From assembly GCA_026984045.1 (NCBI GenBank), contig JALSSV010000013.1:169339-233338 (forward strand): 64,000 nucleotides of DNA, read 5' to 3'. The position numbers and the translations under genes were made by a program. The notes beneath the pieces were generated by a model. It was not told the DNA's origin and did no database searches. It was given only the letters and a program-made list of their open reading frames with translations. Position 1 is the first letter of the stretch; every line of letters starts with the position of its first letter. The DNA comes from Chromatiales bacterium. Its GTDB lineage: Bacteria > Pseudomonadota > Gammaproteobacteria > UBA6429 > Thiohalophilaceae. Shown here in pieces: positions 5,544-63,330 of this stretch.

Positions 5544-5757
5544 GGTGGAAGGAACGCAGAGGGCGCTGAGACGCAGAGAACACGGAGAGTGAGTACGTTT
5601 GGCTGACGAAACAGATTTGTCACCATGGCCATAACATGAATCGTTGGTCTGAATCAGGAATGCAGAAAATTACAGACCAAACCTGTCACTAGCCGAAGTA
5701 CCAACAATTTTCTCCTCTGCGTTCTCTGCGTCTCTGCGCCCTCTGCGTTGTTTGCAG
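5544..5757. repeat. Fold-back repeat, family 1, copy 1 (CGCAGAG arms)
   Basis: Left arm 5544-5590 begins GGTGGAAGGAACGCAGAGGG; right arm 5711-5757 is its imperfect inverse. Each arm is a run of degenerate CGCAGAG units. The inner ~120 bp are also loosely self-complementary: a GTACGTTTGGCTGA stretch pairs with GTACTTCGGCTA read on the other strand. The element could fold into one long imperfect hairpin and has no coding capacity. Further copies or arms lie at 13438-13496 and 22780-22946. Confidence 0.75.
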
Positions 5758-13430: not shown

Positions 13431-14738
13431 TCACACATTCCCCTCCGTACTCTCCGTGCTCTCCGTGTCTCCGTGCCCTCCGTGTTCCTTCCACCGACCC
13501 TGAAGGAAACCATGCAGAATCGTCTCCCGATGCCCGAAGGGCTTCCATGAGGGGGCGATCACGTTGGGCATGTCGGAGCGCCGGAGGAGGGTGGCGGGGG
13601 CGAGCGTGAATTCGCCGTAGCGGGCATTGACGGCGTCCATCACGGCGTTGCCGGGGCCGTGGGCGGGGGCGTCGAAGAGGCCGAGCTGGCCGTCGGCAGG
13701 GCGGGGATCGAGGGCGCGGATCTGCACCTGGAAGAGGCCCTGGCCGCGCCACTGGTCGTCCAGCAGGCGGCGGGCGAGGCGGTAGATCCGCCGGCCGTCG
13801 TCGGTGGGGGTTGTGCAGCGATAGTGATCGGCCAGCCAGCCGTCGCGGGTGGCCAGGCCGACGAAGAAGACCTGCGCCAGCATGGCGTGGCAGCGCAGGC
13901 GCGCGCCCACCTTCTCGCTCATGTGCAGCAGGTAGACGCGGATCACCTGCGGATCGCGGGTGTCCGGCGGCATCACCTTGCCGTGGCCGATGCTCTTCGG
14001 CGGCGGCACGTCGGTGCGCACCGGTTCGCTGTCGAGCCCCTGGCACATCAGCCAGACCCGCCGCCCCGGATTGCCGAAGCGCCGCGCCAGCTCGCCGATG
14101 GGCAGGCGGGTCATGTCGCCGCAGGTGATCACGCCGCGGGCGGCGAGGAAGTCGCCGATTCCCCGGTTGATGCCGCACAGTTCGGTCACCGGCACCTCGC
14201 GCAGGGCGGCCCGGGCCTCCCAGGGCGGGATCACCGTGAAGCCGTCGGGCTTGTGCAGCTTGGCGGCGTACTTGGCGGTGGTCTTGTCGCCGGAGAGCCC
14301 CACCGAGCAGGGCACGCCGGAGGCGGCCACGGCCGCCGCCTTGAGCAGCCGGGCGATGCGCTCCGGCGTGCCGTGCAGCTTCTGGCAGCGGGTCACGTCC
14401 ACGAAGGCCTCGTCCACCGAGAAGATCTCCAGATCGGGACACACGCCGTGCAGGGCCTGCATGATGGCGCGGGACACCTCGGCATAGCGCTCGGGCCGGG
14501 CCGGGCGCTGGATCAGATCCGGACAGCGTTCGAGTGCCTCGCGCAGGCGCATGCCGGTATGCACGCCGCGCGCCCGTGCCTCGTAGGAGCAGGTGATGAT
14601 GCAGGTGCCGGTGGTGCCGTTGGTGACGGCCACGGGCCGGCCGCGCAGGGACGGATCGTCGCGCTGCTCGATGCCGGCGAAGAAGGCGTTCATGTCCAGC
14701 AGCACGATGGCGCGTTTCCAGAAACGGGACGAACTCAT
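13431..14738 (-). CDS. Y-family DNA polymerase (DinB/Pol IV-like)
   Basis: 435-residue translesion polymerase. Catalytic acids are Asp15 (LLDMNAFFA) and Asp109-Glu110 (SVDEAFVDVT); SYEARARGVHTGM and the SVGLSGDKTTAKYAAKLHKPDG segment are the usual Y-family palm/fingers blocks, and a helix-hairpin-helix and little finger follow. It differs from housekeeping DinB (for example DMN instead of DMD), so I do not assign dinB. The last ~20 residues (from about 415) are encoded by a family 1 repeat arm and look like a recent extension. A symmetric four-half-site operator lies before it, which would fit damage control. Confidence 0.87.
   Translation of the reverse strand: MSSSRFWKRAIVLLDMNAFFAGIEQRDDPSLRGRPVAVTNGTTGTCIITCSYEARARGVHTGMRLREALERCPDLIQRPARPERYAEVSRAIMQALHGVCPDLEIFSVDEAFVDVTRCQKLHGTPERIARLLKAAAVAASGVPCSVGLSGDKTTAKYAAKLHKPDGFTVIPPWEARAALREVPVTELCGINRGIGDFLAARGVITCGDMTRLPIGELARRFGNPGRRVWLMCQGLDSEPVRTDVPPPKSIGHGKVMPPDTRDPQVIRVYLLHMSEKVGARLRCHAMLAQVFFVGLATRDGWLADHYRCTTPTDDGRRIYRLARRLLDDQWRGQGLFQVQIRALDPRPADGQLGLFDAPAHGPGNAVMDAVNARYGEFTLAPATLLRRSDMPNVIAPSWKPFGHRETILHGFLQGRWKEHGGHGDTESTESTEGNV
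13438..13496. repeat. Family 1 repeat, single arm, read into the polymerase gene
   Basis: Read on the minus strand it begins GGTGGAAGGAACACGGAGGG, like the left arms at 5544 and 22780, and continues as degenerate ACGGAGAG units. No partner arm is nearby. It overlaps the 3' end of the Y-family polymerase gene and encodes its repetitive tail (GDTESTESTEG). Confidence 0.7.
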
Positions 14739-16400: not shown

Positions 16401-16533
16401 CGCATCAGGTATCGCCCTTGAGGACGGGGAGGGCGATTCGTGACACGCCGTGAATACATCCCTGTAGGCTCGACGGCCGCATCCCTGCGGCCGACGGTCA
16501 CGAATCGCCCTCCCCGTCCTCAAGGGCTCTGTG
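16401..16533. repeat. Long-stem fold-back element, copy A
   Basis: A perfect 31-bp inverted repeat (16414-16444 with 16497-16527) encloses a 52-nt core (16445-16496) that contains its own 8-bp hairpin CGGCCGCA/TGCGGCCG. The core is 51/52 identical to that of copy B at 63105-63216 in inverse orientation; outer flanks are also shared, but the middle of the stem differs. No T-run follows. The rest of the 419-bp gap between cls and the DUF6316 gene holds only a short tandem duplication. Confidence 0.9.
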
Positions 16534-22772: not shown

Positions 22773-22779
22773 CCGGGCC

Positions 22780-22946
22780 GGTGGAAGGAACGCAGAGGGC
22801 GCAGAGACGCAGAGAGCACGGAGAAGCTGGATGGTGGTCAGCATTTTTTGTGGCGATGAGGCGATCTGATTAAGGAGAAAGATGGCCGTAATCAACAGAA
22901 AAACTCGGCGTCCTCTGCGTCTCTGCGTCCTCTGCGTCATTTGCAG
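22780..22946. repeat. Fold-back repeat, family 1, copy 2
   Basis: Left arm 22780-22826 starts GGTGGAAGGAACGCAGAGGG and matches copy 1; right arm 22904-22946 is its inverse and ends TTTGCAG, as in copy 1. The inner ~75 bp are unlike those of copy 1 but loosely self-complementary around TTTTTTGTGGCGATG. It reaches to within 15 bp of the rsmG start. Confidence 0.75.
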
Positions 22947-22960
22947 TGGCGTCTGAACCC

Positions 22961-63019: not shown

Positions 63020-63055
63020 GCGCGGCGCCTCGCCGCGACAAAATGGGCGCTCCGA

Positions 63056-63089
63056 ATTCCATGGCATGAGTTATTCCATGGCATGAGTT
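63056..63089. repeat. Tandem duplication of a 17-bp unit
   Basis: ATTCCATGGCATGAGTT occurs twice without gap, 15 bp before the stem of fold-back copy B. Confidence 0.85.
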
Positions 63090-63090
63090 T

Positions 63091-63229
63091 GGTGCAAGCA
63101 CAGAGCCCTTGGGTTGGGGAAACCGTTTCGTGACCGTCGGCCGCAGGGATGCGGCCGTCGAGCCTACAGGGAGGTATTCACGGCGTGTCACGAAACGGTT
63201 TCCCCAACCCAAGGGCGTGCCAGATGCTG
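63091..63229. repeat. Long-stem fold-back element, copy B
   Basis: A perfect 30-bp inverted repeat (63105-63134 with 63187-63216) around a 52-nt core (63135-63186). It is the inverse of copy A at 16401-16533: core 51/52 identical and outer flanks conserved, but the middle 17 bp of the stem are unrelated to those of copy A. It accounts for most of the 362-bp gap between the thioredoxin-like gene and the permease gene. Confidence 0.9.
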
Positions 63230-63330
63230 GGCCAAGAGCCACAAAAGCGTTCGGGGATTCGGAGAGGCTGTTCGGGAGATGCGTGGGGAAAATTCACTGT
63301 TTTGTTACGGCCACCCGCCACTCCCGACTC

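Follow-up and report, generated by a model that had tools for sequence, protein, structure and literature searches.

Two fold-back sequences in the window, the whole 64,000-nt stretch of DNA analysed here from a Chromatiales bacterium, belong to a gammaproteobacterial repeat family that is likely to be mobile, and for the transcript of their GGA-bearing strand a fold is predicted in which a clamp stem encloses two hairpin loops that would bind one dimer of CsrA/RsmA. We put the probability of this reading at roughly 60%.

The two copies have the conserved core and the perfect stems that the first-pass annotation had ascribed to them. Their arms form inverted repeats of 31 bp in copy 1 (minus strand; 5' arm 16497-16527, 3' arm 16414-16444) and 30 bp in copy 2 (plus strand; 5' arm 63105-63134, 3' arm 63187-63216), each 100% matched around a spacer of 52 nt, with strand and arm order given for the GGA strand. 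Read on that strand, the order is P1 5' arm, P2 hairpin, GAGC, P3 hairpin and P1 3' arm, where P1 of a typical copy is a clamp of about 30 bp whose sequence is free and which encloses P2 and P3. In copy 1 the P2 hairpin (GCCGC-AGGGAU-GCGGC, loop CANGGANG) lies at 16476-16491 and the P3 hairpin (GCC-UAC-AGGGAU-GUA-UUCAC-GGC, its ANGGAN loop closed by a C-G pair) at 16447-16469; in copy 2 they lie at 63140-63155 and 63162-63184, the latter with the loop AGGGAG. The 52-nt cores are identical at 51 positions, and their sole difference falls on the free N that follows GGA in the P3 loop. The window contains a 20-nt core pattern two times, where 100 shuffles lead one to expect 0.00, both copies fold on each strand with z-scores of -10.1 to -12.1 relative to shuffled sequence, and R1, a covariance model derived from 51 copies, matches copy 1 at 16427-16514 with 104.9 bits and copy 2 at 63117-63204 with 102.1 bits.

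The genome-wide core search that the first-pass annotation had proposed returned 57 copies in this genome (2,982,687 bases in 104 contigs) at up to three mismatches, against none for the reversed pattern used as a control at the same tolerance. At the threshold of the script, a P1 stem is present in 55 of these 57, with 1623 Watson-Crick cells, 15 G·U and 18 others. The claim that each stem is perfect and specific to its copy stands for the window pair and fails across the genome, in which stem and flank divide the copies into subfamilies, the P1 arms of two copies (L066 and L080) do not differ at any of the 28 pairs compared, and some stems are imperfect. Among 51 copies that align without internal gaps, 94.7% of cells pair, with two-sided changes in 539 cells as against 150.6 (sd 10.0) in shuffles; these changes affect all 18 P1 and all nine P2 positions. 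The covariation score, a further check that had been suggested, is 0.809; shuffles score 0.156 (sd 0.010), and no slid version exceeds 0.152. It should be noted that 50 of the 51 rows were picked for an intact P1 of one geometry, the exception being a window copy, so that the 98.1% pairing of P1 is partly selected; the 86.7% of P2 is not, and includes one of nine positions that is unpaired in 42 of the 51 rows. P3 barely varies: only the pair beside the bulge changes (C-G, G-C, U-A or A-U, and unpaired in 10 of 51 rows), although, because P3, as UAC-ANGGAN-GUA, lies mostly within the search patterns, its conservation is partly imposed.

Covariation of this kind could reflect selection on a structure or rewriting of one arm from the other, the two possibilities that the first-pass annotation had put forward, and the data support both. 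The first is addressed by the defects that P1 stems tolerate. Strand-symmetric mutation gives G·T and A·C at equal rates, while selection on RNA tolerates G·U, so that an excess of G·U counted on the GGA strand, with both defects penalised alike, marks RNA of that strand. Across 96 copies from named loci there were 112 G·U and 22 A·C pairs, with 52 copies favouring the former, 10 the latter and 34 tied (p=5.7e-8). In 48 copies from Methylotuvimicrobium buryatense, a non-random sample picked from matches listed with the plus strand first, the counts were 93 and 13 (40 copies against 3, p=3e-9), and in 41 copies from relatives they were 20 and 8 (14 against 4, p=0.031). Thirteen copies from other loci gave 7 and 2 (p=0.12), and the 53 copies from this genome gave 9 and 5 (8 copies against 4), which is not significant (p=0.39). 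Purine-purine mismatches likewise exceeded pyrimidine-pyrimidine ones, by 68:18 in the named loci and 58:10 in M. buryatense; P2 stems had no wobble asymmetry (G·U 4, A·C 4). These counts cover copies with a stem (the stemless ones set aside numbered 1 in this genome, 5 in relatives, 29 in named loci, 19 in M. buryatense and 12 elsewhere), with sufficient flanks and with non-duplicate sequence; Yersinia, where P1 reaches the threshold in none of 13 copies, is therefore absent from the test. With the excess recurring in copies of numerous genera, the GGA strand is thus likely to be the selected RNA. Transcription-linked mutation bias could add to the asymmetry, and it too needs transcription of the GGA strand.

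The second possibility finds its evidence in the way that closely related stems of this genome differ. In 37 nearest-copy pairs with no more than six changed P1 pairs, among which individual copies recur, we counted 100 two-sided Watson-Crick changes and 18 one-sided changes (9 G·U, 4 A·C, 5 other). Compensation by way of G·U would make transitions dominate, and yet the two-sided changes comprise 46 transitions and 54 transversions, a ratio close to that of the unpaired flanks (64 and 59, p=0.42), which suggests that a mutation in one arm was copied to the other. These numbers point to fold-back arm copying in this genome, with gene conversion between copies as the remaining alternative for the origin of two-sided changes. 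The series G-C, G·U, A-U is also found at one pair in L070 (by eye), L058 and L069. M. buryatense follows a slow pattern, with 12 two-sided changes (9:3) and 52 one-sided ones (25 G·U, 8 A·C, 19 other), and genome G007 had no close copy pairs for this comparison. Fold-back arm rewriting is usually studied with engineered quasi-palindromes.

It might be argued that fold-back correction alone accounts for the family, that is, that the repeat is a pure DNA palindrome of REP or MITE type whose hairpin serves transposition or forms a cruciform and which has no function as RNA. The one-event-like compensation seen in this genome would agree with such an account, as would the terminal inverted repeats and the near-random orientation to genes in most sets that are described below. 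However, a strand-blind process predicts equal numbers of G·U and A·C pairs, where 112:22 and 93:13 were found, and it leaves unexplained why the loops should be A(N)GGA with a C-G closing pair and a free N. We consider this account unlikely, the strand asymmetry having already weakened it.

We return to the reading in which the repeat RNA is a ligand of CsrA, and to the CsrA-type loops, which the first-pass annotation had not remarked on. According to passages of a review (PMC7652899), the CsrA site selected by SELEX is RUACARGGAUGU, mostly presented in a loop of six bases, its AC being paired with its GU; RsmE structures contain an ANGGAN loop; and one CsrA dimer bridges sites 10-63 nt apart. 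The RsmE consensus is given as A/UCANGGANGU/A in portions of two further papers (PMC6849547; PMC5864733). Both P2 and P3 loops fit the published CsrA/RsmE site, being ANGGAN or AGGAN closed by C-G, and their GGA motifs, at positions 31 and 54 of the 88-mer, are separated by 23 nt, within the published bridging range. None of the 51 aligned rows departs from A, GG and A in the P2 loop, and 49 of them keep C-G as its closing pair, while the pairs beneath vary. A hairpin with a CA(N)GGANG loop precedes P3 in 157 of 189 stem-bearing copies (50 of 53 in this genome, 107 of 136 elsewhere), as scored by a script that examined GGA hairpins only, with P2 forming part of no search pattern; of the remaining stem-bearing copies, 17 have GGA in another loop and 15 lack a GGA hairpin. 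There are in addition long forms, in which two inner hairpins replace the P2 loop. In this genome 12 of 14 inner loops (seven long forms parsed) are GGA loops, mostly CAGGANG, a type that is repeated in CsrB according to the same review (PMC7652899). Over 28 long forms, the inner hairpins comprised 31 with GGA, 13 with UCC and 22 with neither, and 8 of the 13 UCC loops were in Methylotuvimicrobium or Methylomicrobium loci. Long forms from Methylococcales and a few others (L145, L165, L173, L185, L280, L291 and L292) have inner hairpins whose loops, on the GGA strand, read TCC in place of GGA, as if the block had been inverted.

The distribution of the protein bears on the same question. Two CsrA matches exceed the cut-off in this genome, and a match was found in 71 of the 76 repeat-bearing genomes, four of the other five being less than 90% complete; the fifth (G227) is 98% complete, and its best CsrA score is 15.9 bits against a cut-off of 27. 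High-quality genomes carry the repeat in 62 of 280 cases with CsrA and in 1 of 34 without (Fisher p=0.0056, with co-occurrence matched by eye and with kinship and genome size ignored). Several observations count against the CsrA reading: the genome without CsrA just mentioned, the UCC loops of some long forms, an Rfam model on the opposite strand (discussed below), a G·U excess that falls short of significance within this genome alone, P2 stems with no wobble asymmetry, and an orientation to genes that is near random in most sets. By counts that rest on rough gene calls, the upstream gene and the GGA strand point the same way in 26 of 52 cases in this genome, 39 of 75 in a diverse set and 28 of 57 in M. 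buryatense, most sets being unbiased, and in 14 of 19 in Yersinia similis. The review also holds, in the part cited, that very stable hairpins may hinder CsrA binding (PMC7652899), and given this caveat the many P2 stems of more than four pairs likewise weigh against. Even so, judged from sequence, the case for a repeat that would bind CsrA is strong.

An RNA of the GGA strand need not be a CsrA ligand, and it could for instance be a 3'-UTR hairpin that alters mRNA decay, as proposed for the YPAL repeat of Yersinia, which passages of PMC2229807 describe as cotranscribed with upstream genes and perhaps acting on RNA stability. P1 would indeed make a very stable clamp. But stability needs no pair of conserved GGA loops whose free positions fit a CsrA site, and in this genome, the diverse set and M. 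buryatense the repeat has no preference for lying behind co-directional genes, so this, too, strikes us as an improbable alternative to CsrA binding.

Several features suggest that the family moves. In this genome, the copies with recognisable ends on both sides show the repeat to be part of a unit, which spans 214-217 bp in five short copies and 265-268 bp in two long ones. The unit runs from CTAAAT to ATTTAG and has terminal inverted repeats of about 22 bp, for example CTAAATGAAAGTTCCAAATACC. The repeat shares with MITEs a short unit, terminal inverted repeats and many copies whose ends are sharp. Copy 2 of the window has likely remnants of the left (63041-63060, plus strand; family form by eye CTAAATRRNNGTTCCRAATNCC) and right (63253-63269, plus strand) terminal repeats. 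Between the left remnant and P1, ATTCCATGGCATGAGTT is tandemly duplicated at 63056-63089. At the site of L070 a genome of the same genus (G001) has both flanking regions without the element; the BLAST match ends 7-8 nt short of the element end, though by eye the similarity reaches it, and the boundary falls at the apparent stop codon of the upstream gene, where the intergenic sequence has diverged. Near position 1960 of L070 the element end seemingly supplies that stop (ATC-TAA, compared by eye with ATC-TGA in G001). Inspection by eye of the seven copies that retain both ends revealed no clear duplication of the target. Taken together, a unit with terminal inverted repeats and a same-genus relative without a copy at one site make it likely that the repeat family is mobile.

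Another dispersed repeat, whose units resemble GGTGGAAGGAACGCAGAGGGCGCTGAGACGCAGAGAACACGGAG and lie in either orientation, occurs in the window at 5544-5590, 5712-5756, 13449-13500, 22775-22826 and 22904-22950, and by eye the intergenic gap of G001 at the L070 site contains a stretch that resembles it.

Movement could in principle be that of a REP-type element carried by a RAYT (Y1 transposase) recognising GTAG beside a hairpin. The TCC strand does have TGTAG ahead of the hairpin, and a search for Y1_Tnp, the only transposase domain sought, gave one match in this genome (C98:16243). This match is unflanked by copies, however, the nearest found on the contig being at 8240 and 38559, and the element is larger than REPs and has long terminal inverted repeats at its ends, which leaves a RAYT origin highly improbable. 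The GTAG/CGTC REPs treated in sections of PMC3733652 resemble the family in being palindromic, multicopy and intergenic with compensated stem changes, but they are single hairpins of 20-40 bp, whereas here a three-way structure sits within a unit of 214-217 bp.

The first-pass annotation had also called a conserved core with an interchangeable stem atypical of REP, MITE or terminator repeats. Taken as a claim that no known repeat fits, this is partly wrong, the Yersinia branch of the family having been published before: on sequence comparison that branch is the YPAL/RU-2 repeat, filed in Rfam as the sRNA Ysr224. RU-2 and YPAL are one and the same, the Yersinia palindromic sequences (De Gregorio 2006; Delihas 2007). 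The Y. pestis RU-2 contains the module GAGCCTACATGGATGTATTTACGGCG preceded by a GGA hairpin (PMC2759123, Table 1b, a part of that paper; by eye against the Y. similis copy L169), and this genome's element has the core module GAGCNTACANGGANGTATTYACNGCG with a GGA hairpin. Both YPAL/RU-2 and the wider family are dispersed and intergenic with internal inverted repeats, but the Yersinia element is 167-168 bp long and runs from TGACAAA to TTTGTCA (by eye), and neither this length nor these ends are found in the unit described here. For YPAL, passages of PMC2229807 report inverted repeats inside the element, duplications that span 3-26 bp, insertion near dyad symmetry and the existence of empty sites; in the portions of PMC2759123 and PMC2229807 that treat YPAL, a wider family, interchangeable stems and a CsrA site are all absent. 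As far as searches of the open-licence literature show, the family was already known from its Yersinia branch only, and in that literature no description was found of the wider family or of a link between the repeat and CsrA.

The Rfam model for Ysr224 (RF02770), a Yersinia model, scores 126.5 bits on L169 and overlaps the element weakly in five of six other loci (L161, L174, L157, L133 and L127; E 0.0014 to 4); at the gathering cut-off no Rfam family, Ysr224 included, matches in the window. The model represents the TCC strand, opposite to the GGA strand of the family, and one may ask whether the functional RNA is that of the TCC strand, its UCC loops perhaps acting on Shine-Dalgarno sequences. 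Beside the strand of RF02770, the UCC loops of some long forms favour this, as does a report that in Y. ruckeri several Ysr224 copies are expressed, and to differing degrees (excerpts of PMC12112432). Against it, the strand that tolerates wobbles is the GGA strand (in the named loci, 52 copies against 10), and three conserved bases make a short match for antisense pairing; we regard a functional TCC strand as quite improbable.

The predicted GGA-strand RNA has a likeness to sRNAs of the CsrB/RsmZ type, which carry GGA in hairpin loops, and the long forms have CAGGANG loops like the CsrB repeats. But CsrB/RsmZ RNAs come from one or a few dedicated genes, whereas the family is dispersed, often with tens to hundreds of copies in a genome, and unlike theirs its hairpins are enclosed by a long clamp stem. 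We also considered whether CsrR1 of Alcanivorax dieselolei, a CsrA-related sRNA that comes from the hfq 5'UTR (described in passages of PMC9788540), might be an expressed copy. This was unsupported, the core at up to two substitutions being found in none of 29 hfq loci from 30 genomes of the taxonomic family of L122.

Under strict filters R1 has hits in 76 of the 369 genomes sampled from the class, and these, this genome among them, represent 68 of 272 genera. A sample of the phylum had 28 positives among 398 genomes, all of them this genome or members of the same class, the share of the sample outside the class being unspecified. Of 40 genomes searched, 11 match, this one included, and the other 10 have 1 to 93 matches each; pattern counts in eight further genomes ranged from 6 to 508, the highest being that of M. 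buryatense 5G. An exact-pattern scan of genome contigs gave at least 119 stretches. Among the matches listed (80 titles), all are from organisms that we take to be gammaproteobacterial, including Stenotrophomonas, Marinobacter, Microbulbifer, Rheinheimera, Methylotuvimicrobium and Yersinia. The repeat is present in 5 of 5426 E. coli genomes, and the Y. similis element in 27 plasmid records from Pantoea, Klebsiella, Escherichia, Citrobacter and Shigella. For the core, plasmids gave two weak full-length matches (78.6%, E 0.09) on the conjugative NZ_KU922118.1 and NZ_KU922121.1 of Ancylobacter and Xanthobacter, hosts that would presumably fall outside the Gammaproteobacteria; phages gave one short match and viral contigs 5 stretches. 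In Y. similis (G040) nearly all listed matches share one core, TACATGGATGTATTTACGGCG, which suggests a recent burst; cores are diverse in other genomes.

The mechanism that we propose for this genome has two parts. RNA would be made from the GGA strand, and CsrA would bind it, one dimer across the two loops, with the effect of titrating CsrA or of tethering it to neighbouring transcripts. In the DNA, one arm would be recopied from the other by template switching, a form of quasi-palindrome correction, such that a point mutation would become a compensated pair in a single step and stems would stay near perfect while their sequence drifts. A bolder form of this proposal, which we advance tentatively and at somewhat below even odds, is that the family is a transposable sponge for CsrA: a mobile two-site RNA cassette that, at a few to about 500 copies per genome, resets the pool of free regulator, with stems drifting by fold-back copying.

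If the main reading is correct, mobile repeats would be a direct input to the Csr/Rsm system, which governs metabolism, motility and biofilm in Gammaproteobacteria, and repeats regarded as genomic clutter would gain a testable function. YPAL and the sRNA Ysr224 are joined in one family with hitherto unnamed repeats from many other genera, and the closely related copies in this genome form a natural record of apparent fold-back arm rewriting. Should the predicted binding of CsrA be true, the repeat could be a dispersed control device.
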